From Alentia gelatinosa (Eukaryota > Annelida > Polychaeta > Phyllodocida > Polynoidae), in contig OX465584.1 of the NCBI GenBank assembly GCA_950022655.1, forward strand, positions 52,186,723 to 52,250,722: DNA of 64,000 nucleotides, read 5' to 3'. Numbering within the stretch: position 1 is the first letter of the stretch; every line of letters begins with the position of its first letter. Position numbers and translations under genes: made by a program. The notes under the pieces are model-generated. The model was not told the DNA's origin. It did not search any database and saw only the letters and a list, made by a program, of their open reading frames with translations. Positions 4,311 through 59,440 of the stretch are shown piece after piece.

Positions 4311-4745
4311 TACACAATATTAAAATACAAACAACTGTATGCTCCGAGGAGTTGACACGTAGTAATGTCCGAGCGCATGCGAGTAAATTCGTAGGAGCAT
4401 ACAACCGCTTTTATCTGAAACAAGTCTATATTTTTGTATTTATTATCCACCTTTTCTGGACAAGTGGCATACCGATATTAGTTCATTTAGGTGCGCATTA
4501 TTTTTTCAGATACAGTATTTTTCTGTATACCCCGGCTTTCTCGTTATGCTCGGGTATGGTGATACATACTCCCTATGTGTTGTCTATGGACACTGTGTAT
4601 TGGGTAGATATATTTGTATGCACCTGGTATGTCGATACACACTCCCTATGTGTGGTCTATGGACACTGTGTATTGGGTAGATGTATTTGTGTGTTCCTGG
4701 TATGTCGATACATGCTCCCCATGTGTTGTCTATGGACACTTTGTC
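4310..4745 (-). mobile_element. Hairpin-family B element with internal tandem expansion
   Basis: On the minus strand a TIR unit (tttattatccacc end near 4440) sits next to a hairpin whose loop core GAGCGCATGCGAG lies at 4371-4383. The arms pair tgtatgctccgaggag (about 4337) with the gtaggagcataca segment (about 4391). From about 4550 the module ccctatgtgt..tctatggacact..tgtattgggtagat repeats about three times with a ~75-bp period. Confidence 0.65.
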
Positions 4746-4852: not shown

Positions 4853-5136
4853 AGGCCCGGCGTCCACCTACTACGATATGGCTCCGATATGCTCTACAAT
4901 GCACCTCCCGATAGAAAATCAAAATCGCGTCAGAAGGTCACCTTATATCGGGGTAGTTGACCACGTTCCTGCGATTAGAAACCAATAAAAAACACATGCA
5001 ATGCGTGGTGGGTTGGCATGTCTAGACATATGTCTACGATTTTGCACCTTCCCGATATGTCTCCGATATTTGCTTTTTGTATCGGTGCCATATCGGTAGG
5101 TCTAAATCTCTATTGTAGTAGGTGGACGCCAGGCCT
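4853..5136 (-). mobile_element. 284-bp MITE (AGGCC..TCCACC ends), copy 1
   Basis: Both ends carry the ~25-bp inverted repeat with core GGCGTCCACCTACTACGATA and are flanked by TA. The same sequence occurs at 12722-13005, 36336-36619 and 59158-59440. There is no coding capacity. TA flanks fit a Tc1/mariner-type or PIF-like mobiliser, but no transposase is in the window. Confidence 0.85.
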
Positions 5137-5689: not shown

Positions 5690-5996
5690 ATAAGTCTCTG
5701 CCAGGCAGGCAGGATTCTTCCAGGTGACGAGCTGTTTACTCAATGAGGGCAGTTCCTGCGAGCCGCGCGTCCCTCGAGACCCGAATGTCGTCTGGTCTCT
5801 GGACAAAGCGCGGGAAAACAGGGAAAGGTCATTATTTACACCACTGGGGAGCAGGCGCTTAAAAGGGACAAGCGGACTTATCATCCAAACATCTGAAGCC
5901 GGGTAATCGGGAGTGTGGGCGGGGGCCAGAGAGGGGACGCACAGACAGACGTGCTGTGAATGGTTCCGCGGTCTTGCGCATGCCCGCTGTGAAGCT
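5690..5996. other. Low-copy GC-moderate spacer
   Basis: Two opposing ~60-codon frames overlap here without any recognisable family. No repeat identified. Confidence 0.4.
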
Positions 5997-6218
5997 GGGG
6001 CCCGTTTAATTATCTAAGATCGTACATGAAGACCCTTTTTCTATACCTCGTACAAGGGTTATTGTTTAATGATATTTAATTCTGTTCACTAAGACAGTCA
6101 TAGCCGTCCATAATGTCGTCCATAATTGTTGAATAAAGTTGACCCACATCGTCACTGGGTCTCTATGCCGTACAGAAAACGGTCTACATGTAGGATCCTA
6201 GATTATCAAACGGGTCCC
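5997..6218 (+). mobile_element. MITE with GGGCCCGTTTAAT ends, copy 1
   Basis: The left end ggggcccgtttaat..atcgtacatgaagacc and right end gattatcaaacgggtccc are inverted relatives. A second copy in opposite orientation lies at about 27176-27412 and shares the ctataccTCGTACAAGGGTTA block. Confidence 0.7.
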
Positions 6219-7600
6219 AGGTTTCGTTAGAATCTCCCAGGAGATATTATCTACATCCATATTTCAACTCTGACAAAAAATAAAGACATACCCCAGACCC
6301 CTTCCACATATACAAGAAAACTTCTTACTGCTCTGGATTGAGACAATTCCGTAAAGAACTGAAGACCATATAAAAGTATTTTGTTCTGAGCTCTTGTTGG
6401 GGTTTGCACTTGGTATGCAGGGCAGTAGGGGTTTGGCTAGCACGGGAAAATCTCAGGGGTCTTCTATGCGGGTGAGTCCAGAGAAAAGCACTAAAAAAAA
6501 GCGGACAAAACCACTCTGAAGGGATTTTCTTCGCAAAGAAAGAGGAAAGGTTAGTGAGCTATGACTTTTACTTAATCAGCCCATTGGAAAGATCTAGTAG
6601 GATATGGAACAAAAGAAGAGGGCTTTGATACTGGAAGCCTAGACCGAATCTGATTTAGAGTTGGAAACTAAGAAAGGACATAAGTTAGAGGGGGTGGCTT
6701 AGAAGGGATCTTAAACACTAAGTAGGGAGCTAATATGAGACTCCTAGTACTTAAGGGGTAATTCCACCAGGACGTGCGATATATGCCGATCATGGCCGAT
6801 TTGTTGACTCGCTAGGTCGGGATGAATCGTGTGAGAATATCTGGTTGAATTGCTGCAGTGGAATAATTCCCTTTGAGCGATGATATTGGCTACACACGCA
6901 GTGGTAAGTGCAGGACAGGATATTACAAGATTCATCACGATTCATCAAGATGCAGGAACATGCTACAAGACACAGCCCGACCTTGTCTGGCAAAAAATGT
7001 GCTCGTAGAATCAACCCTTTAAGGGGGTGTTCCACTGGGCCGACGGTAGCCGATTCCGTAGCCAGACAATCGCCGATTATTATCGGATGCCCTAGAATTT
7101 CTCAAATCTTTGAAAATGGTCATTTATTAAACTATTATTATCAGAATTAAATGAATTATAACACGTGAGCTTCCTCTTAAGGGCTCAGGAACAATTGATC
7201 GGGTGAGAAATCGGCCTGGTGGATTGTGCCCTTTAGGGAACTAATACGTGACAATTTGTAAAATGGCGTTTTAAATTGTTTCCAGGTATTTAATGATAAG
7301 GGGACATAGTGAGTGTGTCTGAATTACATCTGGTCCTTGTTGCTTTTGGTCGGTAATATTTACCGAGAGTGTACCCTCCTACCTAACGTTATATGTAGTG
7401 GATATCGCAAATGTTATTAATCGAGAACATGAACGTGGAACGGTAGATGGTCGCATTAGCAAGAATCTATTGTGCATCTATGAGGCAGAGAAAGCTTACT
7501 ACGAGGAAGAGTGATGACTTATAGTGTAGCTGAAACTCTATCCACTAAGGTTACCATGGCTGGAGAGCACCATGTTCAACCATATTCCCCCTACTCCCCA
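6219..7600. other. Low-copy region with a degenerate ~270-bp direct repeat
   Basis: No gene is supported. Two segments near 6750 and 7018 share ttaagggg..ttccac..gg..gacg in direct orientation, which may mark the same element end twice. Confidence 0.35.
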
Positions 7601-9304: not shown

Positions 9305-10306
9305 GCCCGCCCCTCACACATCGAGAGAACGGCCTGTGTGTAGAGTGGTCAGTGCACCTGTCACACACCTCCCTCACACAGTGAGAGAGCAGGCCTGAGT
9401 GTAGAGTGGTCAGTGCACCTGACACACACCTCCCCTCACACAGTGAGAGAGCAGGCCTGTGTGTAGAGCGGTCAGTACACCTGACACACACCTCCCCTCA
9501 CACAGTGAGAGAGCAGGCCTGAGTGTAGAGTGGTCAGTGCACCTGACACACACCTCCCCTCACACAGTGAGAGAGCAGGCCTGTGTGTAGAGTGGTCAGT
9601 GCACCTGTCACACACCTCCCCTCACACAGTGAGAGAGCAGGCCTGTGTGTAGAGTGGTCATTGCACCTGGCACACACTGCCCCTCACACAGTGAGAGAGC
9701 AGGCCTGTGTGTAGAGTGGTCAGTGCACCTGTCACACACCTCCCCTCACACAGTGAGAGAGCAGGCCTGAGTGTAGAGCGGTCAGTGCACCTGTCACACA
9801 CCTCCCCTCACACAGTGAGAGAGCAGGCCTGTGTGTAGAGCGGTCAGTACACCTGACACACACTGCCCCTCACACAGTGAGAGAGCAGGCCTGTGTGTAG
9901 AGCGGTCAGTGCACCTGGCACACACCTCCCCTCACACAGTGAGAGAGCAGGCCTGTGTGTAGAGTGGTCAGTGCACCTGACACACACCTCCCCTCACACA
10001 GTGAGAGAGCAGGCCTGAGTGTAGAGCGGTCAGTGCACCTGTCACACACCTCCCCTCACACAGTGAGAGAGCAGGCCTGTGTGTAGAGCGGTCAGTACAC
10101 CTGACACACACTGCCCCTCACACAGTGAGAGAGCAGGCCTGTGTGTAGAGCGGTCAGTGCACCTGGCACACACCTCCCCTCACACAGTGAGAGAGCAGGC
10201 CTGTGTGTAGAGTGGTCAGTGCACCTGACACACACCTCCCCTCACACAGTGAGAGAGCAGGCCTGTGTGTAGAGTGGTCAGTGCACCTGTCACACACCTC
10301 CTCTCA
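9305..10306. repeat. 62-bp tandem array (about 16 copies)
   Basis: The unit core is CACAGTGAGAGAGCAGGCCT followed by GWGTGTAGAGYGGTCAGTRC. Core spacing is 62 bp (9381, 9443, 9505). Variants alternate (GAGTG/GTGTG, CTGACAC/CTGTCAC/CTGGCAC), and a four-unit block appears duplicated (about 9720-9960 versus 9968-10200), which suggests a higher-order repeat. No TIR at the borders. Confidence 0.95.
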
Positions 10307-12721: not shown

Positions 12722-13005
12722 AGGCCTGGCGTCCACCTACTACGATAGAAATTTAGACCTCCCGATATGGCACCGATACAAAAAGCAAATACCGGAGACA
12801 TATCGGGAATGTCCAAAATCGTAGACATATGTCTAGACATGCCAATCCACCACGCATTGTATGGGGTTTTTATCGGTGTCTAATCGCAGAAACGTGGTCA
12901 ACTGTCCCGATATTAGTTGACCTTCCGACGCGATTTTGATTTTTTATCGTGAGGGGCATCGTAGACCATATCGGAGCCATATCGTAGTAGGTGGACGCCG
13001 GGCCT
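12722..13005 (+). mobile_element. 284-bp MITE, copy 2
   Basis: Full-length copy in the orientation opposite to 4853-5136, TA-flanked on the left; the right flank reads TAA. The ends are the same ~25-bp inverted repeat. Confidence 0.85.
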
Positions 13006-14059: not shown

Positions 14060-15670
14060 CCGCTGGGGGCAGGTCTGTTGTGGGATGGCAGGGGGGGCAG
14101 CGGCTGGGGGCAGGTCTGTTGTGGGATGGTAGGAGGGGCGGCGGTCTTGGACAGGCCTGTTGTCGGATGGCGGGAGCGGTGGTGGATAGAAGAAGGTCCG
14201 TTGTGGGATGGCAGGAGAGGCAGTGGTCGGGGAAAGGCCCGTTGTGGGATGGCAGAAGAGGCAGTGGTTGGGGACAGGCCGGTTGTCGGATGGCGGAAGT
14301 GGTGGCAGGCAGGGGCAGGCCTGTTGTAGGATGGCGGTGGCTGGGGGTAGGTCTGTTATGGGATGGCGGGGGGGGGGGGGGCAGCGGCTGGGGGCAAGCC
14401 TGTGGTGGGATGGCAGGAGGGGCGGCGGTCTGGGACAGGCCTGTTTTTCGATGGCGGGAGTGGTGGTGGATAGAAGAAGGTCTGTTGTGGGATGGCAGGA
14501 GAGGCAGTGGTCGGGGAAAGGCCAGTTGTGGGATGGCAGAAGACGCAGTGGTCGGGGGCAGGCCTGTTGTCGGATGGCGGGAGTGGTGGCAGGTCTGTTA
14601 TTGGATGGCAGGGGGGGCAGCGGTCTGGGACAGGCCTGTTGTTGAATGGCGTGAGTGGTGGTGGATAGAAGAAGGTCTGTTGTGGGATGGCAGGAGAGGC
14701 AGTGGTCGGGGAAAGGCCAGTTGTGGGATGGCAGAAGAAGCAGTGGTCAGGGACAGGCCGGTTGTCGGATGGCGGGAGTGGTGGCAGGCAGGGGCAGGCC
14801 TTTGTAAGATGTAAGAGGGCGGGGGCAGGCCTGTTGTGGGGTGCCAGGAGTTGTGGTGGCTGATGGTAGGCATGTTGTGGGATGGGGGGAGTGCAGGCGG
14901 CCAGGGGCAGCGGCCAGGAGCAGGCCTGTTGTGGGGTGGTTGGAAGGGCGGCAGCCAGGGGCAGGCCTGTTGTGGGATGGTGGAAGGGGCGGCAGCTGGT
15001 GACAGCTATATTGTGGTATGACGGGTGTGGTGGCGGTTAGAGGCAGGCCTGTTGTGGGATGGCAGGAGGGGTGGCAGCCGGGGGCAGGGCTGTTGTGGGG
15101 TGGCGGGAAGGGCGGCAGCCAGGGGCAGGGCTGTTGTGGGATGGTGAAAGGGTGGCAGCTGGTGGCAGCTATATTGTGGTATGACGGGTGTGGTGGCGGT
15201 TAGAGGCAGGCCTGTTGTGGGATGGCAGGAGGGGTGGCGGCTGTGGGCAGGCCTATTGTGAGATGGTGGGTGTGGTGGCGGTTAGAGGCAGGCCTGTTGT
15301 GAGATGGTGGGAGTGGCAGCGGCTGGGGGCAGTTCTGTTGTGGGATGGCGGGTGTGGTGGCGGTTAGAGGCAGGCCTGTTGTGGGATGGCATGAGTGGTG
15401 GTGGTAGGGGGCAGGCCTGTTGTGAGATCTTTGGAGGGACGGGGCTGGAGAGGCAGGCCTGTTGTGGGATGATAGGAGGGGCAGCTAGTGGCAGCTATGT
15501 TGTTGGATGGCGGGTGTGGTGGCAGTTAGAGGCAGGCCTGTTGTAGGATGGTTGGAGTGTCAGCGGCTGGGGGCAGGCCTGTTGTAGGATGGTTGGAGTG
15601 GCAGCGGCTGGGGGCAGGCCTGCTGTGAGATGGCGGGAGGGGCGGCAGGCCTGTTGGAGGGAGGGTGGTG
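14060..15670. repeat. G-rich ~41-bp minisatellite
   Basis: Repeats of GGCCTGTTGTGGGATGGC plus a variable G-rich part; core spacing about 41 bp (14201, 14242, 14283). A longer block beginning gtggtggatagaagaagg recurs at about 14170, 14461 and 14656, giving a higher-order pattern. Long frames here (to 293 codons) are products of the repeat. Confidence 0.95.
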
Positions 15671-19560: not shown

Positions 19561-19564
19561 ACTG

Positions 19565-21350
19565 GCAGTGTGTAGTGGGTGTGGGTTGGTGGATAGTATG
19601 AAGGGTGGGCAGTGGTAGGTGGATGTGGGTAGATGGATAGTGTGAAGGGTAGCAGTGGATGGTGGATGTAGGTAGGTGGGAAGTATGAAGGGCGGTAGTA
19701 GTTAGGTGGATGTGGGTAGGTGGGAAGTATGAAGGGTGGAAGTTGGTGATGGATGTGGGTAGGTGGGCAGTGTGAAGGGTGGCAGTGGGTAGTGGATGTG
19801 GGTAGGTGGATAGTATGAAGGGCGGTAGTAGTTAGGTGGATGTGGGTAGGTGGGCAGTTTGAAGGGCGGTAGTAGTTAGGTGGATGTGGGTAGGTGGGCA
19901 GTTTGAAGGGTGGCAGTAGATAGTGGGTGTGGGTAGGTGGATAGTATGAAGGGTGGGCAGTGGGAGGTGGATGTGGGTAGATGGATAGTGTGAAGGGTAG
20001 CAGTGGATGGTGGATGTAGGTAGGTGGGAAGTATGAAGGGTGGCAGTTGGTAGTGGATGTAGGTAGGTGGGCAGTGTGAAGGGTAGCAGTGGATAGTGGA
20101 TGTGGGTAGATGGGAAGTATGAAGGGTGGCAGTGGTAGGTGGATGTTGGTAGGTGGATAGTATGGAGGGTGGAAAGTGGATGTGGGTAGGTGGGCAGCAA
20201 GAAGGGTGGCAGTGGGTGGTGGATGTGGGTAGGTGGGCAGTATGAAGGGTGGATGGTGGATGTGGGTAGGTGGATAGTGTGAAGGGTGGGCAGTGGTAGG
20301 TGGATGTCAGTAGGTGGGCAGTATGAAGGGCGGTAGTAGTTAGGTGGATGTGGGTAGGTGGGAAGTATGAAGGGTGGCAGTTGGTGATGGATGTGGGTAG
20401 GTGGGCAGTGTGAAGGGTAGCAGTGGATGGTGGATGTGGGTAGGTGGATAGTATGAAGGGCGGTAGTAGTTAGGTGGATGTGGGTAGGTGGGCAGTTTGA
20501 AGGGCGGTAGTAGTTAGGTGGATGTGGGTAGGTGGGCAGTTTGAAGGGTGGCAGTAGATAGTGGGTGTGGGTAGGTGGATAGTATGAAGGGTGGCAGTTG
20601 GTGATGGATGAGGGTAGGTGGGCAGTATGAAGGGTAGCAGTGGATAGTGGATGTGGGTAGGTGGGCAGTATGAAGGGTGGGCAGTGGTAGGTGGATGTGG
20701 GTAGGTGGGAAGTATGAAGGGTGGCAGTGGGTAGTGGATGTGGGTATGTGGGCAGTATGAAGGGCGGTAGTAGTTAGGTGGATGTTGGTAGGTCGGAAGT
20801 ATGAACGCTGACAGTGGGTAGTGGATGTGGGTATGTGGATAGTATGAAGGGTGGGCAGTGGTAGGTGGATGTGGGTAGGTGGGCAGTATGAAGGGTGGCA
20901 GTGGGCAGTGGATGTGGGTAGTCGGGCAGTATGAAGGGTGGCAGTGGATGGTTTATGTGGGTAAGACGGCAGTGTGAAGGGTGGCAGTGGGCAGTGGATG
21001 TGGGTAGTCGGGCAGTATGAAGGGTGGCAGTGGATGGTTTATGTGGGTAAGACGGCAGTGTGAAGGGTGGCAGTGGGCAGTGGATGTGGGTAGTCGGGCA
21101 GTATGAAGGGTGGCAGTGGATGGTTTATGTGGGTAAGACGGCAGTGTGAAGGGTGGCAGTGGGCAGTGGATGTGGGTAGTCGGGCAGTATGAAGGGTGTC
21201 AGTGGGTAGTGGATGTGGGTAGGTGGGCAGTATGAAGGGCGTCAGTGGGTGGTGGATGTGGGTAGGTGGGAAGTATGAAGGGTGGTAGTAGTTAGGAGGA
21301 TGTGGGTAGGTGGGCAGTTTGAAGGGTGGCAGTTGGTAGTTGATGTGGGT
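19565..21350. repeat. G-rich ~43-bp minisatellite (about 40 copies)
   Basis: The unit is GGATGTGGGTAGGTGG, GCAGTATGAAGGGTGG and a short variable part; spacing 43-44 bp. Near 20930-21180 a two-unit variant (containing gtttatgtgggtaagacgg) is itself repeated three times, indicating recent local homogenisation. Confidence 0.95.
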
Positions 21351-23309: not shown

Positions 23310-24045
23310 GCCCCGGAGAGGGGGGAGATGAGGGGGACGGGGGGAGTGACCCGGAGAGGGATGGGGAGGAGGGAGGGGGAGGAGGGCGGGGGAGGAGGGC
23401 AGGGGAGGAGGGCGGGCTGGTGACCCCGAGAGGGAGAGGGAGGGGGACCCAGAGAGGGAGGGGGAGTAGGGCGGGCAGGTGACCCGGAGAGGGAGAGGGA
23501 GGAGGAGGCCAGGTGACCCGGAGAGGGAGAGGGAGGAGGGGGCGGGTGGGTGACCCGGAGAGGGATAGAGAAGAGGGCAGGTGACCCGGAGAGGGAGGGA
23601 GGAGGAAGGGGAGGAAGGGTGACCCAGAGAGGGAGGGGGAGGAGGATGGGGTAGGGAGGAGGAGGGGGCGGGCGGGTGACCCAGAGAGGGAGAGGGAGGA
23701 GGGGATGGGCGGGTGACCTAGAGAGGGAGGAGGGGGCGGGTGGGTGACCCGGAGAGGGATAGAGAGGAGGGCTGGTGACCCGGAGAGGGAGTGGGAGGAG
23801 GGAGGTGGGTGGGTGACCCGGAGAGGGAGGGTGAGGAGGGGGTGGGCGGGTGACCCTGAGAAGGAGGGGGAGGAGGGGGCGGGCAGGTGACCCGGAGAGG
23901 GAGGGTGAGGAGGGGGTGTGCGGGTGACCCTGAGAGGGAGGGGGAGGAGGGGGTGTGCGGGTGACCCTGAGAGGGAGGGGGAGGAGGGGGTGTGCGGGTG
24001 ACCCTGAGAGGGAGGGGGAGGAGGGGGTGTGCGGGTGACCCGGGA
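23310..24045. repeat. G-rich ~37-bp minisatellite
   Basis: Unit GGGTGACCCGGAGAGGGAG plus GGGGAGGAGGGGG; spacing 37 bp in the regular right part (23961, 23998, 24035). A 343-codon minus frame (Pro/Ser-rich, RVTRTPPP repeats) is a repeat artefact. Confidence 0.95.
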
Positions 24046-27105: not shown

Positions 27106-27175
27106 CAACAGTATCCTGTACATATTAGACAGAAAGTTCAGCTACTGTTTTTAGAAACAAGAAATGGCACTTAGG

Positions 27176-27412
27176 CCCGTTGAATAATCTAGGGTTGTAC
27201 GTGAGGACCCTTTTCTGTACGCCAAGGAGACCCAAGGACGATATGAGTCAACTTAATTAAACACTCATTGACTACCTTATGGACGGCTAATACTTATGGA
27301 CGGCTAATTCTGTCTTAGCAAATGAACTTACAAATTATTAAACGATAACCCTTGTACGAGGTATAGAAAAGGGTCTTCATCTACGATCCTTTATTATTAA
27401 ACGGGCTCCGGC
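27176..27412 (-). mobile_element. MITE with GGGCCCGTTTAAT ends, copy 2
   Basis: Reverse-oriented relative of 5997-6218. The ends are ggcccgttgaataatct and attattaaacgggctcc. A short ttatggacggctaat duplication lies inside. Confidence 0.7.
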
Positions 27413-33436: not shown

Positions 33437-33770
33437 ATTATCCACTTAATACAAAGTGTCCATAGAAAACACATAGGGATTTCGTATGGACATACCCGGC
33501 ACATACAGATATGTTGTATGCTCCGGGTGGCGCATACGGAAAAATAGTGCGTACGGAAAAATAGTGCATAACTAAAAGGGACTGATATCGACATGCCACT
33601 TGTCCAGAAAAGGTGGATAATAGATATAATATAGACTGGTTCCAGATAAAAGCGGTTGTATGCTCCTCGGAGTTGACTCGCATACGCTCGGATATTACTA
33701 CGCGTCAACTCCTCGGAGCATACGGCCGCTTGTATCTGAAACCAGTCAATATTGTGTATTCCACGCACAC
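33437..33770 (+). mobile_element. Hairpin-family B element
   Basis: A TIR unit from ttattatccactt to aaggtggataatag (33437-33623) is followed by a hairpin whose arms contain ctcctcggagttga and tcaactcctcggagcata. The loop contains CTCGCATACGCTC (33677-33689). Confidence 0.75.
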
Positions 33771-36335: not shown

Positions 36336-36619
36336 AGGCCCGGCATCCACCTACTGTGATATGGCTCCGACGTGCTCTACGATGCACCTCCCGATAAAAA
36401 ATAAAAATCGCGTCGGAAGGTCCCCTAATATCGGAGCAGTTGACCACGTTTCTGCGATTAGACACCGATAAAAACCCCATACAATGCGTGGTGGATTGGC
36501 ATATCAAGACATATGTCTTCGATTTTGCACCTTCCCGATATGTCTCCGATATTTTCTTTTTGTATCAGTGCCATATCGGTAGGTCTAAATTTCTATCGTA
36601 GTAGGTGGACGCCAGGCCT
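36336..36619 (-). mobile_element. 284-bp MITE, copy 3
   Basis: Full length, TA-flanked, same orientation as 4853-5136. The left TIR has a single change (GGCATCCACC). Confidence 0.85.
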
Positions 36620-40545: not shown

Positions 40546-40865
40546 TCTGAGTGTCCATAGAAAACACACAGGGAGTGTTTATCACCATATCGGGAGCATA
40601 TATCTATACCCAACTCATATAAAGTGTCAATAGAAGACACATAGGGTGTGTGTATCACCATACATGGAGCATGCATATATATCCACCCAATACAAAGTGT
40701 CCGTAGAAAACACATGGGGAGTGTGTATCACCATACCCGGAGAATACAGATATATCCAACTCATACAAAGTGTCCATAGTAAACACATAGGGAGTGTGTT
40801 TGAACATACCCGGAGCATATAGATAAATCCACCTAATACAAAGTGTCCATAGTAAGTACACAAAG
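40545..40865 (-). repeat. Family B internal module, about four tandem copies
   Basis: Repeats of aaagtgtccatagaaaacac, a gggagtgtgtatcaccatac block and cggagcatanagatatatcca at a ~87-bp spacing. The module occurs once in the units at 1383 and 33437 and about three times at 4550-4745. Confidence 0.8.
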
Positions 40866-45424: not shown

Positions 45425-45449
45425 TTAAGGCCTACATCCACCAAAGTTG

Positions 45450-45830
45450 ATAAATCCGTCCGTCAAAAAAAGTCGACTAAAGTTGACGGATTTCAGTATC
45501 CGTCAGCAGTGGAAGAGTAATTCTCCGTCGACGTTTCACTATTCCGTCGGGTAAACTTGTACGGATCCTTCATTCTCTCTTCCACCTAGCCAAAAAGTCT
45601 GCTATCCGTCAGCCTTTGTATATAATTAGCTGTACGGATTTTGGTGGAAGTCATTTTTTCCGTTCACCGTCCCTGTTTAGTCTGTGAAATACCAACGGAA
45701 TACCCACAAATTTTAAATTCCAACGGACGGATCCAATATCAAACCATGTTTGATATTTTTCCCCGTCAATGGATACCTACTCCGTCCGTCCAAAAATGCT
45801 ATCTGCCCTCCCTGCCTGGGGGTCGTTGCA
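45450..45830. other. Left subterminal domain with TCCGTC motifs
   Basis: At least ten TCCGTC/GACGGA/ACGGAT motifs in both orientations are spread over ~350 bp. This domain is followed by tgcctgggggtcgttgcata, which recurs with changes at 51148-51167 beside the second GC array. Confidence 0.7.
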
Positions 45831-45835
45831 TAAAC

Positions 45836-46070
45836 GGGCCCGGTTTGGTCCCGGGCCGGGTTTGGTCCCGGGCCGGGTTTGGTCCCGGGCCGGGTTTGAT
45901 CCCGGGCCGGGTTTGGTCCCGGGCCAGACCGGTTTGATCCCGGGCCGGGTTTGATCCCGGGCCGGGTATGGTCCCGGGCCGGGTTTGGTCCCGGGCCGGG
46001 TTTGATCCCGGGCCGGGTTTGGTCCCGGGCCGGGTTTGGTCCCGGGCCGGGTATGGTCCCGGGCCCGGTT
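45836..46070. repeat. 17-bp array, GGTCCCGGGCCGGGTTT type
   Basis: Tandem 17-mers with TGATC/TGGTC variants; leads directly into the next array. Confidence 0.95.
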
Positions 46071-46770
46071 TGGTCCCGGGCCCGGTTCGGTCCCGGGCCC
46101 GGTTCGGTCCCGGGCCCGGTTCGGTCCCGGGCCCGGTTCGGTCCCGGGCCCGGTTCGGTCCCGGGCCCGGTTCGGTCCCGGGCCCGGTTCGGTCCCGGGC
46201 CCGGTTCGGTCCCGGGCCCGGTTCGGTCCCGGGCCCGGTTCGGTCCCGGGCCCGGTTCGGTCCCGGGCCCGGTTCGGTCCCGGGCCCGGTTCGGTCCCGG
46301 GCCCGGTTCGGTCCCGGGCCCGGTTCGGTCCCGGGCCCGGTTCGGTCCCGGGCCCGGTTCGGTCCCGGGCCCGGTTCGGTCCCGGGCCCGGTTCGGTCCC
46401 GGGCCCGGTTCGGTCCCGGGCCCGGTTCGGTCCCGGGCCCGGTTCGGTCCCGGGCCCGGTTCGGTCCCGGGCCCGGTTCGGTCCCGGGCCCGGTTCGGTC
46501 CCGGGCCCGGTTCGGTCCCGGGCCCGGTTCGGTCCCGGGCCCGGTTCGGTCCCGGGCCCGGTTCGGTCACGGGCCCGGTTCGGTCACGGGCCCGGTTCGG
46601 TCACGGGCCCGGTTCGGTCACGGGCCCGGTTCGGTCACGGGCCCGGTTCGGTCACGGGCCCGGTTCGGTCACGGGCCCGGTTCGGTCACGGGCCCGGTTC
46701 GGTCACGGGCCCGGTTCGGTCACGGGCCCGGTTCGGTCACGGGCCCGGTTCGGTCACGGGCCCGGTTTGA
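46071..46770. repeat. 17-bp array, CGGTCCCGGGCCCGGTT type
   Basis: Almost perfect 17-mers (about 41 copies). After about 46565 the C at one position becomes A (CGGTCACGGG), marking a second homogenised block. Each unit contains the palindrome CCGGGCCCGG. As 17 is not a multiple of 3 and no phase has a stop, all frames are open, giving 17-residue Gly/Pro/Arg repeats. Confidence 0.98.
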
Positions 46771-47610
46771 TCCCGCACCCGGGCCCGGTTTGATCCCACA
46801 CCCGGGCCCGGTTTGATCCCGCACCCGGGCCCGGTTTGGTCCCGGGCCCAGTTTGGTCACGGGCCCGGTTTGATCCCGCACCTGGGCCCGGTTTGATCCC
46901 GCACCCGGGCCCGGTTTGATCCCGGCGCAGTTTGATCCCGGGCCCGGTTTGATCCCGGCCCAGTTTGGTCACGGGCCCGGTTTGATCCCGCACCTGGGCC
47001 CGGTTTGATCCCGCACCCGGGCCCGGTTTGATCCCGGCGCAGTTTGATCCCGGGCCCGGTTTGATCCCGGCCCGGTTTGATCCCGGCCCGGTTTGATCCC
47101 GGCCCGGTTTGATCCCGGGTGCGGCCGGACCGGTTTGATCCCAGTCCGGTTTGATCCCGCACCGGCGCCCGGTTTGATCCCGGGCTCGTTTTGGCCTTGG
47201 CCCGGTTTGATCCCGGCCCGGTTTGATCCCGGTTTGATCCCGGGTGCGGCCGGGCCGGTTTGATCCCGGGCCAGGTTTGATCCCGGGCCGGACCGGTTTG
47301 ATCCCGGGCCGGACCGGTTTGATCCCGGGCCGGACCGGTTTGATCCCGGGCCGGACCGGTTTGATCCCGGCCCGGTTTGATCCCGGCCCGGTTTGATCCC
47401 GGGTGCGGCCGGACCGGTTTGATCCCGGTCCGGTTTGATCCCGGTCCGGTTTGAACCCGGGCCGGGTTTGGTCCCGGGCCGGGTTTGGTCCCGGGCCCGG
47501 TTTGATCCCGGCCCGGTTTGATCCCGGCCCGGTTTGATCCCGGCCCGGTTTGATCCCGGGTGCGGCCGGACCGGTTTGATCCCGGTCCGGTTTGATCCCG
47601 GCCCGGCCGC
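46771..47610. repeat. GGTTTGATCCCGGGCC-type mixed array
   Basis: Variable units combine GGCCCGGTTTGATCCC with inserts gcaccc, ggtgcggccgga and ggccggacc. This is the same vocabulary as 51290-52800 but on the opposite strand. Confidence 0.95.
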
Positions 47611-47705
47611 ACCCGGCCCGGCTGCGGTTGGTTGATTGCGGTTGGTTGATTGCAGGGTGGTCAGGTGGGTAGGTCAGCGGATGGGTCAGTTAACGGGTCG
47701 GTTAA
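47611..47705. repeat. Transitional GGTTGGTTGATTGCG / GGTCAGG segment
   Basis: Two copies of ggttggttgattgc, then ggtcagg/gggtaggtcag words like those in 52810-54390. Confidence 0.7.
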
Positions 47706-47708
47706 CGG

Positions 47709-48090
47709 GTCGATCCCCGGGCCCGGTTGGATCCCCGGGCCCGGTTGGATCCCCGGGCCCGGTTGGATCCCCGGGCCCGGTTGGATCCCCGGGCCCGGTT
47801 GGATCCCCGGGCCCGGTTGGATCCCCGGGCCCGGTTGGATCCCCGGGCCCGGTCGGATCCCCGGGCCCGGTCGGATCCCCGGGCCCGGTCGGATCCCCGG
47901 GCCCGGTCGGATCCCCGGGCCCGGTCGGATCCCCGGGCCCGGTTGGATCCCCGGGCCCGGTTCGATCCCCGGGCCCGGTTCGATCCCCGGGCCCGGTTCG
48001 ATCCCCGGGCCCGGTTCGATCCCCGGGCCCGGTTCGATCCCCGGGCCCGGTTCGATGACCGTGCCCGGTTCGATGACCGTGCCCGGGTTC
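47709..48090. repeat. 18-bp array, GGATCCCCGGGCCCGGTT type
   Basis: About 20 near-perfect 18-mers with block-wise variants (GTTGG, GTCGG, GTTCG). The 18-bp unit is a multiple of three, so frames carry constant 6-residue repeats such as IPGPGW and DPRARL. Confidence 0.98.
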
Positions 48091-49756
48091 GATCCCTTCC
48101 AAGAGGCAGACAGGAAGACATGGAGTCAGGCATGGAGGCAGGCAGGCAGGCCGGCAGGCAGGGAGACAGGGAGGCAGGGAGGCAGTCAGGCAGGCATGCA
48201 GGCATGCAGGCATGCAGGCAGGCAGGCAGGCAGGGTGGCAGTCAGGTAGGCATGCAGGCAGGCAGAGAGGCAGGTAGGCATGCAGGCAGGCAGGCAGGCA
48301 GGGTGGCAGTCAGGTAGGCATGCAGGCAGGCAGGCAGGCAGGGTGGCAGTCAGGTAGGCATGCAGGCAGGCAGGGAGGTAGGCATGCATGCAGGCAGGCA
48401 GGCAGGCAGGCAGGCAGGGTGGCAGTCAGGTAGGCATGCAGGCAGGCAGGCAGGCAGGCAGGCAGGGTGGCAGTCAGGTAGGTATGAAGGCAGGCAGGGA
48501 GGCATGCAGGAAGGCAGGCAGGCAGGCAGGCCGGCAGGCAGGCAGGCAGGCAGGCAGGCTGGCAGGGTGGCAGTAAGGTAGGCATGCAGGCAGGCAGGCA
48601 GGGTGGCAGTCAGGTAGGCATGCAGGCAGGCAGGGAGGCAGGTAGGCAAGCAGGCAGGCAGGCAGGTAGGGTGGCAGTCAGGTAGGCATGCAGGCAGGCA
48701 GGCAGGCAGGGTGGCAGTCAGGTAGGCATGCAGGCAGGCAGGCAGGGTGGCAGTCAGGTAGGCATGCAGGCAGGCAGGCAGGCAGGGTGGCAGTCAGGTA
48801 GGCATGCAGGCAGATCACCGTGCCCGGGTTCGATCCCTTCCAAGAGGCAGACAGGAAGACATGGAGTCAGGCATGGAGGCAGGCAGGCAGGCCGGCAGGC
48901 AGGGAGACAGGGAGGCAGGGAGGCAGTCAGGCAGGCATGCAGGCATGCAGGCATGCAGGCAGGCAGGCAGGCAGGGTGGCAGTCAGGTAGGCATGCAGGC
49001 AGGCAGAGAGGCAGGTAGGCATGCAGGCAGGCAGGCAGGCAGGGTGGCAGTCAGGTAGGCATGCAGGCAGGCAGGCAGGCAGGGTGGCAGTCAGGTAGGC
49101 ATGCAGGCAGGCAGGGAGGCAGGTAGGCATGCATGCAGGCAGGCAGGCAGGCAGGCAGGGTGGCAGTCAGGTAGGCATGCAGGCAGGCAGGCAGGCAGGC
49201 AGGCAGGGTGGCAGTCAGGTAGGTATGAAGGCAGGCAGGGAGGCATGCAGGAAGGCAGGCAGGCAGGCAGGCCGGCAGGCAGGCAGGCAGGCAGGCAGGC
49301 TGGCAGGGTGGCAGTAAGGTAGGCATGCAGGCAGGCAGGCAGGGTGGCAGTCAGGTAGGCATGCAGGCAGGCAGGGAGGCAGGTAGGCAAGCAGGCAGGC
49401 AGGCAGGTAGGGTGGCAGTCAGGTAGGCATGCAGGCAGGCAGGCAGGCAGGGTGGCAGTCAGGTAGGCATGCAGGCAGGCAGGCAGGGTGGCAGTCAGGT
49501 AGGCATGCAGGCAGGCAGGCAGGCAGGGTGGCAGTCAGGTAGGCATGCAGGCAGATCACCGTGCCCGGGTTCGATCCCTTCCAAGAGGCAGACAGGAAGA
49601 CATGGAGTCAGGCATGGAGGCAGGCAGGCAGGCCGGCAGGCAGGGAGACAGGGAGGCAGGGAGGCAGTCAGGCAGGCATGCAGGCATGCAGGCAGGCAGG
49701 CAGGCAGGGTGGCAGTCAGGTAGGCATGCAGGCAGGCAGGGAGGCAGGTAGGCATG

Positions 49757-49789
<33 letters not shown>

Positions 49790-49856
49790 AGGCAGGTAGG
49801 CATGCATGTAGGCAGGCAGGCAGGCAGGCAGGCAGGGTGGCAGTCAGGTAGGCATG

Positions 49857-49889
<33 letters not shown>

Positions 49890-51110
49890 TGGCAGTCAGG
49901 TAGGTATGAAGGCAGGCAGGGAGGCATGCAGGAAGGCAGGCAGGCAGGCAGGCTGGCAGGGAAGCAGTAAGGTAGGCATGCATGCAGGCAGGCAGGGTGG
50001 CAGTCAGGTAGGCATGCAGGCAGGCAGGGAGGCAGGGTGGCAGTCAGGTAGGCATGCAGGCAGGCAGGCAGGGTGGCAGTCAGGTAGGCATGCAGGCAGG
50101 CAGGCAGGCAGGGTGGCAGTCAGGTAGGCATGCAGGCAGATCACCGTGCCCGGGTTCGATCCCTTCCAAGAGGCAGACAGGAAGACATGGAGTCAGGCAT
50201 GGAGGCAGGCAGGCAGGCCGGCAGGCAGGGAGACAGGGAGGCAGGGAGGCAGTCAGGCAGGCATGCAGGCATGCAGGCAGGCAGGCAGGCAGGCAGGGTG
50301 GCAGTCAGGTAGGCATGCAGGCAGGCAGGGAGGCAGGTAGGCATGCAGGCAGGCAGGCAGGCAGGCAGGCAGGGAGGCAGGTAGGCATGCATGCAGGCAG
50401 GCAGGCAGGCAGGCAGGGTGGCAGTCAGGTAGGCATGCAGGCAGGCAGGCAGGCAGGCAGGCAGGGTGGCAGTCAGGTAGGTATGAAGGCAGGCAGGGAG
50501 GCATGCAGGAAGGCAGGCAGGCAGGCAGGGTGGCAGGGTGGCAGTAAGGTAGGCATGCAGGCAGGCAGGCAGGGTGGCAGTCAGGTAGGCATGCAGGCAG
50601 GCAGGGAGGCAGGTAGGCAAGCAGGCAGGCAGGCAGGTAGGGTGGCAGTCAGGTAGGCATGCAGGCAGGCAGGCAGGGTGGCAGTCAGGTAGGCATGCAG
50701 GCAGGCAGGCAGGGTGGCAGTCAGGTAGGCATGCAGGCAGGCAGGCAGGGTGGCAGTCAGGTAGGCATGCAGGCAGGCAGGCAGGCAGGCAGGGTGGCAG
50801 TCAGGTAGGCATGCAGGGAGGCAGGGAGGCAGGGTGGCAGTCAGGTAGGCATGCAGGCAGGCAGGCAGGCAGGGTGGCAGTCAGGTAGGCATGCAGGGAG
50901 GCAGGCAGGCAGGGTGGCAGTCAGGTAGGCATGCAGGCATGCAGGCAGGCAGGCAGGGTGGCAGTCAGGTAGGCATGCAGGCAGGCAGGCAGGCAGGGTG
51001 GCAGTCAGGTAGGCATGCAGGCAGGCAGGCAGGCAGGCAGGGTGGCAGTCAGGTAGGCATGCAGGCATGCAGGCAGGCACGCAGGCAGGCACGCTGCCTC
51101 CTTCCTTCTA
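48091..51110. repeat. GGCA-based array with 741-bp higher-order repeat
   Basis: (GGCA)n runs alternate with GGGTGGCAGTCAGGTAGGCA words. The marker cccgggttcgatcccttcc + aagaggcagacagg starts blocks at 48082, 48823, 49564 and 50149, i.e. periods of 741, 741 and 585 bp. A degenerate marker at 51095-51140 closes the array. Confidence 0.97.
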
Positions 51111-51290
51111 AGAGGCAGAGAGGGAGACATGGAGTCAGCTCTCCCTGCCTAGGGGGCGTTGCATAAACCGGGAACGAAAATACATGTGAATTTAGGTAAA
51201 GAACGAAAGTACAACGAAAATACAACATAACATTTTTCATTGTGTTGCACCAAACATATCGTTGTGTTATGGTTCCTTTGTTGACTCAAA
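51111..51290. other. Unique linker inside the giant element
   Basis: Contains ctccctgcctagggggcgtt gcataaacc, related to 45805-45835, followed by ~120 bp of non-repetitive DNA. Confidence 0.6.
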
Positions 51291-52810
51291 AGTTTGGGGC
51301 TCAAACCAGGCCGGGCCGGGGGTCAAACCGGGCCGGGGTCAAACCGGGCCGGGGCTCAAATCGGGCCGGGTGCGGCTGGGCCGGGGCTCAAACCGGGCCA
51401 GGCCGGGCCGGGCCGGGGCTCAAACCTGGCCTGGCCGGGTGCGGCCGGGCCTGGGGTCAAACAGGGTTGGGATCAAACCGGGCCGGCGCTCAAACCGGGC
51501 CGGGCCGGGTGCGGCTGGGCTGGGCCGGGGCTCAAACCGGGCCGGGCCGGGCCGGGGGTCAAACCGGGCCGGGCATCAAACCGGGCCGGGCATCAAACCG
51601 GGCCAGGCGTCAAACCGGGCCGGGCCGGGTGCGGCCGGGCCGGGTGATCAAAACCGGGGATCAAACCAGGGATCAAACCGCTCAAACCGGGCCGGGCCGG
51701 GTGCGACTGGGCCGGGCTTAAACCGGGCCGGGCCGGGTGCGGCCGGGCCGGGCCGGGGCTCAAACCGGGCCCGGGATCAAACCGGGCCCGGGATCAAACC
51801 TGGCCCGGGATCAAACCGGGCCCGGGATCAAACCGGGCCCGGGATCAAACCGGGCCCGGGATCAAACCGGGCCCGGGATCAAACCGGGCCCGGGATCAAA
51901 CCGGGCCCGGGATCAAACCGGGCCCGGGATTAAACCGGGCCGTGTCGGGTGCGGCCGGGCCGGGCCGTGTCGGGTGCGGCCGGTCCGGGCCGTGTCGGGT
52001 GCGGCCGGGCCGGGGCGTGCCGGGTGCGGCCGGGCCGGGTGCGGCCGGGCCAGCGCTCAAACCGGGCCGGACCGGGCCCGGGATCAAACCGGGCCCGGGA
52101 TCAAACCGGGCCCGGGATCAAACCGGGCCCGGGATCAAACCGGGCCCGGGATCAAACCGGGCCCGGGATCAAACCTGGCCCGGGATCAAACCGGGCCCGG
52201 GATCAAACCGGGCCCGGGATCAAACCGGGCCCGGGATCAAACCGGGCCCGGGATCAAACCGGGCCCGGGATCAAACCGGGCCCGGGATTAAACCGGGCCG
52301 TGTCGGGTGCGGCCGGGCCGGGCCGTGTCGGGTGCGGCCGGGCCGGGCCGTGTCGGGTGCGGCCGGGCCGGGGCGTGCCGGGTGCGGCCGGGCCGGGTGC
52401 GGCCGGGCCAGCGCTCAAACCGGGCCGGACCGGGCCCGGGATCAAACCGGGCCCGGGATCAAACCGGGCCCGGGATCAAACCTGGCCCGGGATCAAACCG
52501 GGCCCGGGATCAAACCGGGCCCGGGATCAAACCGGGCCCGGGATCAAACCGGGCCCGGGATCAAACCGGGCCCGGGATTAAACCGGGCCGTGTCGGGTGC
52601 GGCCGGGCCGGGCCGTGTCGGGTGCGGCCGGGCCGGGCCGTGTCGGGTGCGGCCGAGCCGGGTCGGGTGCGGCCGGGTCGGGCCGAGATCGAACCCGGCC
52701 GAGATCGAAGCGGGCCTGGGGTCGAACCGGGCCTGGGATCGGACCGGGCCCGGGATCAAACTGGGACCGGGTTGATCCCGGGATCAAACCGGGCCCGGGA
52801 TCAAACGGGA
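51291..52810. repeat. CGGGATCAAACCGGGCC array, inverted to the left array
   Basis: 17-mer CCGGGATCAAACCGGGC (reverse complement of the left-array word), interspersed with gtgcggccgggcc blocks. A composite block starting attaaaccgggccgtgtcgg recurs at about 51928, 52286 and 52576. Confidence 0.97.
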
Positions 52811-54390
52811 TCAGTCAATCAGTCGATCGATTGGTCATTGGGAAGGTTGATGGGTCAATCTATCAGTGGGTCAATTGGTGGGTGGGTCAATCAGTCAGTG
52901 GGTCGATCGGTCAGTGGGTCAATCGGTCATTGGGAAGGTTGGTCAGTCGCTCAGTGGATAGGTCAGTGGGTTGATTGGTCAGTGGGTCGATCGGTTGATG
53001 GGTTAGTCAGTCAGTGGGTGAATCAAGCAGTTGGTTAATTGGTCAGTGGGATGATTGGTCGCTTGGTCAATCAGTCAATGAGTCGAATGATCATTTGGTG
53101 GGTCAGTCGGTGGGTAAATCAATCTATGGGACGATCTGTCGTTGGGATGATTTGTTGGTGGCACAATCAGTCAGTTGGTCGAACAGTCAGTCAGTCCATC
53201 CATTAGTTATTGGTTGGGTCAGTGGATCGATCAGTCGATTGGTTGGTGGGTCATTGTGTTGGTGGGTTGATTTGTGGGTAGGCCAATTGGTCTGTGGGTC
53301 AATAGGTCAGTGGGTACAATCAGTCGGTGGGACAATCGGTCGGTTGGTCAATCTGTCAATAAGTCGATAAATGGGTTGGTTGGTTGGTCGATGGGTCGAA
53401 CGGTCAGTGGGTCGATCGGTTGATTGGTTGGTGGGTTGATCTGTCGGTGGGTCAATCAGTTGGTGGGTCAATCAGTCGGTGGGACAATCAGTCTATGGGA
53501 AGATCAGTCAAATAGTCGATCGATTGGTCATTGGGAAGGTCGGTGGGTCAATCTGTCAATGGGTCGATTGGTGGGTTGGTCAATCAGTCAGTGGGTTGAT
53601 CGGTATGTGGGTCGATCTGTCATTGGGAAGGTTGGTCAGTAGATGAGTTGATCAGTCAGTGGGTCTATTAGTCGGTGGGTCAATCGGTTGGTGGGTAAAT
53701 CAGTCAGTGGGTCAATCGATCGGTGGGTCAATTGGTCAGTGGGACAATCTGTCGGTTGGTTAATCAGTCAATGAGTCGATTGATTGTTTGGTGGGTCAGT
53801 CGGTGGGTCAATCAGTCAATGGGATGATCGGTCAATAGGACGATCTGTCGGTGGGACGATCTGTCTGTGGGACGATCTGTCTGTGGGACGATCTGTCGGT
53901 GGGACGATCTGTCGGTGGGACGATCTGTCGGTGGGACGATCTGTCGGTGGGACGATCTGTCGGTGGGACGATCTGTCGGTGGGACGATCTGTCGGTGGGA
54001 CGATCTGTCGATGGGACGATCGGTCAGTGGGACGATCGGTCAGTGGGGCGATTGGTCGGTGGCACAATCAGTCAGTTGGTCGATCCATCATTTATTGGTT
54101 GGGTCAGTGGGTTGATTAGTTGGTAGCAGGGTCAATCTGTAGGTGGGTCGATTAGTGGGTAGGCCGAGCGGTCGGTTGGTCAATAGGTCAGTGGGTCAAT
54201 CAATAGGTGGTACAATCAGTCGGTAGGATGATCGGTAGGTTGGTCAATCGGTCAAAGCGTCAATGGTGGGTTGGTGAGTTGGTGGTTCGGTAGGTCAGTG
54301 GGTCGGTTTGTTGGTTGGTTGGTTTGAGGATGTGTGGGTGGATAGGTCGGGGGATGGGTCGGTGGGTGGGTCGGTAGGTCGGTGGATCGG
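52811..54390. repeat. GGTCAGTGGGTCGATC-type degenerate array
   Basis: Loose ~12-16-bp words built from GGTCAGTGGGTCAATCGG. A regular 16-bp sub-array GGGACGATCTGTCGGT lies at about 53850-54010. Confidence 0.95.
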
Positions 54391-54570
54391 ATGTTTGGTG
54401 GCAGGGAGGCAGGGAGGCAGGAAGGGAGGGGGGAGGCAGGGAGGCAGGCAGACGGGCAGGGAGGCAGGGAGGGAGGCAGGCAGGCAGGGGGACAGGGGGG
54501 GAAGGAGGCAGGCAGGTAGGCAGGGAGGTGGGCTGGCAGGCAGGTAGGCAGGTAGGCAGGCAGGGAGACA
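54391..54570. repeat. GGCAGGGA-type array, right end
   Basis: ggcagggaggcaggcagg words resemble the central GGCA array. Confidence 0.9.
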
Positions 54571-54574
54571 GGGG

Positions 54575-54773
54575 TTCCTTTCCGCTACAAATCCGTCGCT
54601 GACGACGGACGGGCTTCAATAATTTGACGGACGGATGGTTGGTGGAAGCTGGTTTAGCCGTCCGTAGGGTAACCGTCGACAAACATTCAGCCAATCCGTC
54701 GAATTTTGCGACGGACGGATTGATAATAGGCCGGACGGATTCATAACCAACTTTGGTGGATGTGGGGCTTTAA
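54575..54773. other. Right subterminal domain with GACGGA motifs
   Basis: Repeated gacggacgg/ccgtccg motifs in both orientations lead into the right TIR (ccaactttggtggatgtgg, then ggcttta). Confidence 0.75.
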
Positions 54774-57819: not shown

Positions 57820-59130
57820 GAGGTGAGCGTGTGTGAGTGGCTGAGCTCATCTCTAGGTGTGAGCGTGTGTGAGTGGCTGAGCTCATATCTAGGTGGGTGG
57901 TCTGGTGTGAGTGGCTGAGCTCATCTCTAGGTGGGTGGTCTGGTGTGAGAAACTGAGCTCATCTCTAAGGGTGAGGGTGTCGGAGTGGTTGAGCCTATCT
58001 CTAGGTGGGAGCTGGTGTGAGTGGCCGAGCTCATATCTAGGGGTGACCTGGTGTAAATCTCTAGGGGGTGGGTTGGTGTAAGTGGCTGGACTCATCACTA
58101 GGGAGGTGAGCGTGTGTGTGTGTCTGAGCTCATATCTAGGGGTGACCTGGTGTAAGTGGCTGGACTCATCACTAGGGAGGTGAGCGTGTGTGTGTGTCTG
58201 AGCTCATATCTAGGGGTGACCTGGTGTGAGTGGCTGAGCTCATCTCTAGGGGAGTGAGCATGTGTAAGTGGCTGAGCTCATATTTAGGGGTGGGTTGGTG
58301 TAAGTGGTTGAGCTCATTTCTAGGGGTGACATGGTATAAGTGGTTGAGTTCATATCTAGGAGGGTGGTTGTGGCCCCTAAGATTCGAGGTCAACTCTCGA
58401 CTGTATAGCCCTCCCAAGGCCTAGAAAATAGCATGTAAGGAGGTCAGGGTCAAGGTCGGGGTTTGCTGCGAATGCAGTCATTGGCTACTCGGTCTACTCT
58501 ATTCCTTATATGGACTTAAGGTAATGGGACAACTCCATGCTGGTAGCGGTGACCTGGTGTGAGTGGTTGAACTCATCTCTAGAGGTGAGTTGGTGTAAGT
58601 GGCTGGGCTCATCTCTAGGGGGGAGCTGGTGTGAGTGGCTCATCTCTGGGGTGAGCTGGTGTGAGTGGACGAGCTCATATCTAGGGGAGTGAGCGTGTGT
58701 GAGCGGCCGAGCTCATATCTAGGGATGGGTGAGCGTGTGTGGATGGCTGAGCCTATCTCTAGAGGAGAGCTGGTGTGAGTGGCCGAGCTCACATCTAGGG
58801 GGGGGGGCGGGTTGGTGTAAGTGGCTGAGATCATATCTAGGAATGAGCTGGTGTGAGTGGCTCATCTAGGGGTGTGAGCTGGTGTTAGTGCCTGAGGTAA
58901 TCTCTAGGGGTGTGAGCTGGTATGAGTGGCTGAGCTCAGCTCTAGGGGAGTGGGCTGTTGTGAGAATCTCATCTCTCGGGGTGAGCATGTGGGAGTGGTT
59001 GAGCCTATCTCTAGGTGGGAGCTGGTATGAGAGGTTGAACTCATATCTAGGGGAGCTAGGATGTGTGAGAGGTTAAACTCATATCTAGGGGGGACCCTGT
59101 GTGAGTAGCTGTGAGTATCTCATCTCTAGG
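57820..59130. repeat. G/T-rich ~36-40-bp minisatellite
   Basis: Unit GTGTGAGTGGCTGAGCTCAT followed by ATCTAGGGGTGAGC. An unrelated ~130-bp segment (about 58415-58545) interrupts the array. The 284-bp MITE lies just past its right end. Confidence 0.95.
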
Positions 59131-59157
59131 GGTGAGCGTGTGGTGCGGGGAGCGTTA

Positions 59158-59440
59158 AGGCCCGGCGTCCACCTACTACGATGGAATCGTAGACCTCCGG
59201 ATATGGCGCCGATACAAAATGTCAAAATCGGTGCCATATCGGAAAGGTGCAAATTCGTAGACATATGTCTAGACATGCCAATCGACCACGCATTGTATGG
59301 GGTTTTATCGGTGTCTAATCGCAGAAACGTGGTCAACTGCCCCGATATTAGGTAACCTTCCGACGCGATTTTGATTTTTTATCGGGAGGTGCATCGTAGG
59401 GCATATCGGTGCCATATCGTAGTAGGTGGACGCCGGGCCT
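59158..59440 (+). mobile_element. 284-bp MITE, copy 4
   Basis: Full-length, TA-flanked, oriented as 12722-13005. It carries two short differences in the interior. Confidence 0.85.

Follow-up and report, generated by a model that had tools for sequence, protein, structure and literature searches.

Structure of an array-filled element with inverted ends

The window analysed here, a 64-kb stretch of the genome of the annelid Alentia gelatinosa, contains between positions 45426 and 54772 a region that is built almost wholly of tandem arrays and is bounded by two sequences matching each other in inverted orientation. Reading this stretch in full placed the limits of the inferred element at 45428-54770, giving a length of 9,343 bp inside a TA dinucleotide at either edge. 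Each end consists of a terminal inverted repeat (TIR) followed by a subterminal block rich in the motif ACGGA/TCCGT, and the 8.7-kb interior is occupied by arrays that we name A to F (Table 1). Our analysis suggests that this is probably a single non-autonomous, TA-targeting cut-and-paste TIR transposon, which has been filled by the expansion of repeats in place.

The left end reads AAGGCCTACATCCACCAAAGTTG...ATAAATCCGTCCG and the right end, as its reverse complement, AAGCCCCACATCCACCAAAGTTG...ATGAATCCGTCCG. Together with the adjoining dinucleotide the left edge reads TA-AGGCCTACATCCACCAAAGTTG-ATAAATCCGTCCG and the right edge, on the opposite strand, TA-AAGCCCCACATCCACCAAAGTTGGTTATGAATCCGTCCG. 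The inverted local alignment of the two ends scored 67, a value reached by none of 1,000 dinucleotide-shuffled pairs, the best of which scored 53. For the terminal 56 bp of both ends, likewise, none of 1,000 shuffles gave as good a mutual inverted match. The inverted likeness becomes weak from about 45 bp inwards, with the local score equalled in 82 and the global score in 23 of 2,000 shuffles, and the same-strand local score lies slightly above the inverted one (35 vs 32). Because the likeness past this point is near shuffle level, the TIR proper is about 40 bp long and gives way to the motif-rich blocks, and long TIRs of 200 bp were rejected.

There are 83 occurrences of the motif ACGGA/TCCGT in the 64 kb, 15 of them in the left 401 bp, nine in the right 201 bp and none in the 8.7-kb interior. 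When 200-bp windows were ranked for the motif across the 64 kb, the densest three (9, 9 and 5 occurrences) all fell in the subterminal blocks and the next contained 3. As both blocks share this cluster, it links the two ends without recourse to the inverted repeat. Transposases often bind to clustered short motifs near the ends of a transposon.

We also considered whether the arrangement might be due to chance, with a satellite cluster happening to lie between two unrelated end-like sequences. The ends were chosen by eye from 64 kb, which introduces some multiple testing, and when pairs were drawn at random from genuine window sequence outside the arrays, 2 of 1,000 reached the score of the end pair (84 and 103). 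However, the inverted match coincides with the motif clusters and with the borders of the arrays, and both edges are TA, making a chance origin very improbable.

No gene was seen inside the element. The open reading frames (ORFs) of at least 120 amino acids, counted from stop to stop, are mostly periodic translations of the arrays. A Pfam scan covered nine of the 58 window ORFs, all nine outside the element, and returned only a sub-threshold match to Secapin (E 0.035) that we judged to be chance. For a protein query translated from part of array D, none of the 7,986 candidates scored was a homologue at 1e-5, and Rfam at gathering scores gave no match in the 64-kb window.

The original prediction for this locus had described matching inverted ends, TA at both edges, subterminal motif clusters and the lack of a gene between the ends, and these features are borne out, the TA dinucleotides lying within one base of the edges first proposed. 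The ends of about 200 bp that it named are longer than the TIRs, the inverted repeat extending over about 40 bp only. The central claim, that both ends belong to one TIR element with an interior of nearly pure tandem repeat, is well supported by the sequence through the alignment score of 67, the motif blocks and an interior repeat coverage of 96.9%.

Table 1. Features of the element and its edges, in window coordinates
Feature	Position	Strand	Basis or detail
TA, putative target duplication, left edge	45426-45427		Direct sequence reading; calibrated on the copies of a miniature inverted-repeat transposable element (MITE) in the window
Left TIR, AGGCCTACATCCACCAAAGTTGATAAATCCGTCCG	45428-45463	+	Inverted alignment and shuffles
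Left subterminal block	45464-45801		15 ACGGA/TCCGT motifs within 45425-45825
Junction segment X, copy 1	45802-45838	+	Direct repeat of 51135-51171
Array A, 17-mer GGTTYGRTCMCGGGCCC	45835-47612	+	28 and then 12 identical monomers, followed by mixed units of 16, 21, 23 and 26 bp
Short GGTT/GGTC stretch, similar to array E in the same orientation	47613-47711	+	9-mer comparison
Array B, 18-mer GGTYSGATCCCCGGGCCC	47712-48096	+	Tandem-repeat and 9-mer analysis
Array C, GGCA tetranucleotide in higher-order units	48097-51134	+	Unit alignment
Junction segment X, copy 2	51135-51171	+	Direct repeat of copy 1
Non-tandem sequence of about 118 bp, imperfect inverted repeat inside	51172-51289		Repeat analysis
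Array D, 17-mer of array A inverted, 358-bp higher-order repeat	51290-52806	-	9-mer, pattern and self-alignment
Array E, degenerate 16-mer of tetranucleotide make-up, GGTCAATCGGTCAGTG	52807-54395	+	Tandem-repeat and 9-mer analysis
Array F, GGCA tetranucleotide, family and strand of C	54396-54572	+	9-mer comparison
Right subterminal block	54573-54731		9 ACGGA/TCCGT motifs within 54573-54773
Right TIR	54732-54770	-	Inverted alignment and shuffles
TA, right edge	54771-54772		Direct sequence reading; calibrated on MITE copies

The interior arrays and their growth

Tandem Repeats Finder assigned 8,465 of the 8,738 interior bases (96.9%) to tandem repeats, compared with 17.3% of the left flank and 17.7% of the right. 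The longest interior stretch outside the tandem arrays is the sequence at 51172-51289. The interior can be divided into seven blocks drawn from three motif families, a 17/18-mer (A, B and D), a GGTC-type 4/16-mer (the short stretch and E) and a GGCA 4-mer (C and F). The five or more distinct arrays originally described are present as blocks, but they are less diverse than the number implies, with one monomer common to A, B and D, GGCA common to C and F, and a likeness between E and the short stretch. The two copies of segment X are identical at 32 of 37 positions, counted on the alignment (E 1e-6 over 34 bases).

Comparison of 9-mers established how the blocks are related and orientated. The fraction of array F 9-mers present in C is 0.59 on the same strand and 0.00 on the other, and 14% of the 9-mers of the short stretch are found in E on the same strand, with 0% on the other. 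For the two parts of array A, A1 and A2, the fractions found in D are 0.38 and 0.55 as reverse complement vs 0.13 and 0.20 on the same strand. The core of the 17-mer, GGTT[CTG]G[AG]TC, occurs at 108 plus-strand and no minus-strand sites between 45842 and 51000, and at 34 minus-strand and no plus-strand sites between 51471 and 52782; two further plus-strand sites lie in E. Array D is therefore array A's repeat in inverted orientation.

Several of the arrays are uniform. A1 and B are homogeneous at the level of the monomer, with self-matches of 0.97 at lag 17 and 0.96 at lag 18, and C and D at the level of the higher-order unit. In these arrays the individual homogenisation originally claimed is present, but A2 and E are degraded, their best self-matches among the lags tested being 0.58 and 0.66. 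Array A contains 28 identical monomers and then 12 of a one-base variant. Array C is organised in units of 741, 741, 585 and 942 bp, followed by part of a fifth, which starts at 51106, and its first two units are identical at 737 of 741 positions in an ungapped alignment, leaving four differences. In array D the 358-bp higher-order repeat is conserved at 353 of 358 positions. Such monomer runs and higher-order units are marks of local expansion in place.

Sequence of the B type precedes four of the five unit starts in C (48097, 48838, 49579 and 50164) and is missing before the partial unit at 51106. Because of this association the junction between B and C must be older than the multiplication of the units. 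The joined B-C unit was amplified after B and C had met, which means that expansion continued after the blocks were joined. Within the same region, GGTTCGATCCC at 47959-48096, 48827, 49568 and 50153 fits the form GGTTCGANNCC, which we take to be that of the tRNA B-box. This form has nine matches on the plus strand and one on the minus strand in the 64 kb, all inside the element, and these B-box-like matches probably arise incidentally from the monomer.

The 17-mer comes close to being self-complementary, and a 111-nt piece of array A folds into hairpins with 10-bp stems (z = -5.2), none of 200 shuffles being as stable. A and D carry the same monomer on strictly opposite strands, which raised the question of whether the element is a strict foldback transposon. 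In such a scheme A and D would be the 17-mer arms of an ancestral long palindrome that became lopsided through the growth of C and E. This would be a special form of the single-transposon reading and is compatible with it. A and D can be likened to the tandem domains within the TIRs of Tetris (PMC4079207) and of a Galileo copy of 9,021 bp (PMC4168063). However, C has the orientation of F and the short stretch that of E, and the two copies of segment X are in direct orientation. Read along the plus strand, there are two rounds of X, 17-mer, GGTC-type and GGCA, the first containing B in addition and the second the 118-bp stretch, which looks as if a module had been duplicated directly and one array flipped. 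A foldback ancestry is possible but, on this evidence, doubtful. For the interior taken by itself, direct module duplication with one flipped array explains the arrangement as well as foldback ancestry does, and we are undecided between the two.

Relationship to short elements and arrays elsewhere in the window

The window contains four copies of a 284-bp MITE, at 4853-5136, 12722-13005, 36336-36619 and 59158-59440. These start with AGGCCYGGCRTCCACC and have a mean column identity of 90%, short flanks included. Seven of their eight ends are flanked by TA, the eighth being without one A. The pattern TA-A?RGSCC-N2-5-NTCCACC has 10 matches in the 64 kb, eight in the MITE copies and one at each end of the element. 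A second pattern, AGGCC-N1-8-TCCACC, has nine, one at each of the eight MITE ends and one at the left end of the element, whereas shuffled sequences average 0.35 and none of 100 reached nine. Both patterns were composed post hoc, after the ends had been inspected. The subterminal motifs differ, the MITE having CGATA clusters without ACGGA clusters and the element ACGGA. Beyond the short pattern the element shares neither a likeness of its ends with the 284-bp MITE, as judged by an unanchored alignment, nor a subterminal motif. The end pattern is suggestive of a kinship between the two.

This kinship bears on the target site. PIF/Harbinger-like elements have TTA and piggyBac/Kolobok-like elements TTAA target duplications. 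Both were set aside as targets here, as TA flanks seven of the eight ends of the MITE copies in the window, and a kinship with these elements would favour TA.

A second MITE, present as a pair at 5992-6223 and 27175-27406, has a TIR near GGGGCCCGTTTRATWATC that resembles the 17-mer monomer GGGCCCGGTTTGAT. A derivation of the 17-mer from the TIR of that MITE (GGGGCCCGTTTRAT) would be a matter of resemblance only.

Arrays are also found elsewhere in the window. We picked 10 of these and searched their 1.2-kb flanks, finding one, at 2216-3540, that is flanked by an inverted pair, made up of copies of a dispersed repeat. The array is an 89-bp satellite, and the pair that brackets it (1388-1572 and 4423-4612) has a further relative near 33439. 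Tandem 73-bp units of the same dispersed-repeat family occur at 4553-4744 and 40550-40852. Long minisatellite arrays at 9310-10306, 14062-15646, 19563-21350, 23356-24043 and 57822-59142, several of them strongly G-rich on the plus strand, showed no clear inverted pair in their 1.2-kb flanks.

Origin of the element

The anatomy described above points to an element that would be mobile, and by TA alone its transposase would be placed in the Tc1/mariner-like class. In the model that we favour, that of a single non-autonomous transposon, the ends of about 40 bp, and probably also the subterminal blocks with their ACGGA motifs, would serve as recognition sites for a transposase provided in trans. 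Short repeats inside these ends would have grown in place, by slippage during replication or by unequal exchange, until the element was full of them. Hairpins formed by the near-self-complementary 17-mer may have promoted both this growth and a template switch that inverted one of the arrays.

Several observations weigh against this model. One copy of the element is known. No transposase or relative was found, a result of little weight given that the exact-pattern scans, which gave no match, covered viral and prokaryotic contigs only. The TIR likeness fades past about 45 bp, a TTA or TTAA duplication is also compatible with the edges, and the TA edges are no proof of a single event since two separate insertions also predict TA. 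Each end also pairs to some extent with its own block, beating about 95% of shuffles (41 and 48 of 1,000 equalled it), and the left block holds a 12-base inverted partner, ACATCCACCAAA at 45434 and TTTGGTGGAAGT at 45640, that is 92% complementary. With regard to the 284-bp MITE, a looser end pattern also matches one other site, at 29879, and TAAGGCC alone occurs at eight further places outside the MITEs. In an unanchored alignment to the MITE end across 8,106 TA sites, with the MITEs masked, the left end of the element ranked 31 and the right end 932. Given these low ranks, and the presence of TAAGGCC elsewhere, the case for kinship rests on the anchored, post hoc pattern.

The own-block pairing is relevant to an alternative in which two separate short elements of the same family, in opposite orientation, flank an older satellite cluster. 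Their inner ends would have been lost and the 9.3-kb unit would never have moved as a whole. TA beside each outer end is expected in this case too, the weak inverted partners within the blocks are in keeping with it, and arrays are plentiful outside the element, at 17-18% of the flanks, with the array at 2216-3540 also bracketed by inverted dispersed repeats. However, the two ends match each other, at a level seen in none of 1,000 shuffles, far better than they match their own blocks. In a direct comparison the ends scored 54 against each other and 26 and 21 against the rest of their own blocks. In addition, the dense ACGGA cluster is restricted in the 64 kb to these two blocks, and the ends have the convergent orientation expected of one element. 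We therefore consider two separate insertions unlikely. The related possibility, raised with the original prediction, that each end belongs to a short MITE of its own is disfavoured because each end pairs far better with the other end than within its block, where pairing is weak yet present.

A further and more speculative proposal would be that the element acts as a mobile satellite cassette. An ordered module of X, self-complementary 17-mer, GGTC-type and GGCA repeats, present twice, would seed several unrelated satellite families with each insertion, and its ends would mark the element as a family of its own with related short MITEs. We regard this as rather improbable at present. How sequence-unrelated satellites become scattered over genomes is an open question, and a transposon uniting several array families would be a direct vehicle. 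If more copies exist, the growth of the arrays could be dated against the ends.

Comparison with known elements

Tetris from Drosophila virilis is a foldback element with tandem repeats within its TIRs (PMC4079207). Galileo copy 112 from D. willistoni, likewise of a foldback element and 9,021 bp long, consists almost wholly of TIRs with tandem repeats, of 4,246 and 4,680 bp, in which the repeat numbers are unequal between left and right (PMC4168063). The copies described are without a transposase gene, and none was seen in our element; TIR-type ends and tandem repeats on both sides are common to all. They differ in that their units, of about 220 and 140 bp, are of one kind and their TIRs are long, compared with about 40 bp here. 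Tetris also has target site duplications of 8-10 bp rather than TA, and no GGCA or GGTC arrays appear in the parts of either element that were compared. With respect to the foldback structure, inverted tandem domains on two sides are formed by A and D and not by C and F, E or X. Long inverted arms continuous through the repeats were not found, as the likeness fades at about 45 bp and the order of the blocks is not mirror-like.

Helitrons end in TC...CTRR with a 3' hairpin and have no TIR. The ends of our element, AGGCC... and ...GGGGCTT, form an inverted repeat and do not fit this description. In the Pacific oyster, Helitron/Helentron elements (HINE) are non-coding mobile vehicles of satellite arrays and contain short tetranucleotide tracts such as GTCY (PMC7492417, PMC12628747), with different array types found within one oyster Helitron-type element (PMC12628747). 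The original prediction held that a transposon carrying a series of distinct arrays would be unusual; given that these oyster elements carry more than one array (PMC12628747, PMC7492417), this is so in degree but less so in kind. The likeness lies in the mobile, non-coding carriage of arrays and in the tetranucleotide tracts. In contrast, the oyster elements have Helentron-type ends with subterminal inverted repeats and no TIR with TA, and their arrays mostly comprise up to five monomers of 140-180 bp.

Tc1/mariner elements target TA. Our element has TA at both edges, which TTA and TTAA readings also fit. In Xenopus, miDNA4 is a Tc1/mariner MITE with an internal satellite of variable copy number, for which a model of internal array growth has been put forward (PMC12628747, PMC9659126). 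It resembles our element as a non-autonomous TIR element with an internal satellite, but has one satellite family in a MITE vs three motif families in 8.7 kb here.

MITEs reach lengths of up to about 800 bp. At 9,343 bp our element is far larger, although it is non-coding and has TIRs and a putative TA target duplication, as MITEs do. A MITE length of approximately 400 bp is given in PMC9659126. MITEs of Lepidoptera with hitch-hiking (GTCY)n microsatellites, cited in PMC9659126, also place a GTC-type tetranucleotide array in a short non-autonomous element; going by that citation, they differ in having a single microsatellite.

Among the literature matches listed, which comprised titles and the openings of abstracts with most subscription literature outside their scope, no TIR element was evidently like this one, and we do not claim that none exists. 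Transposons with internal tandem repeats are already known. The element in Alentia gelatinosa combines traits that are each familiar, TIR and TA ends with several motif families and almost nothing else, and takes the carriage of internal repeats unusually far.

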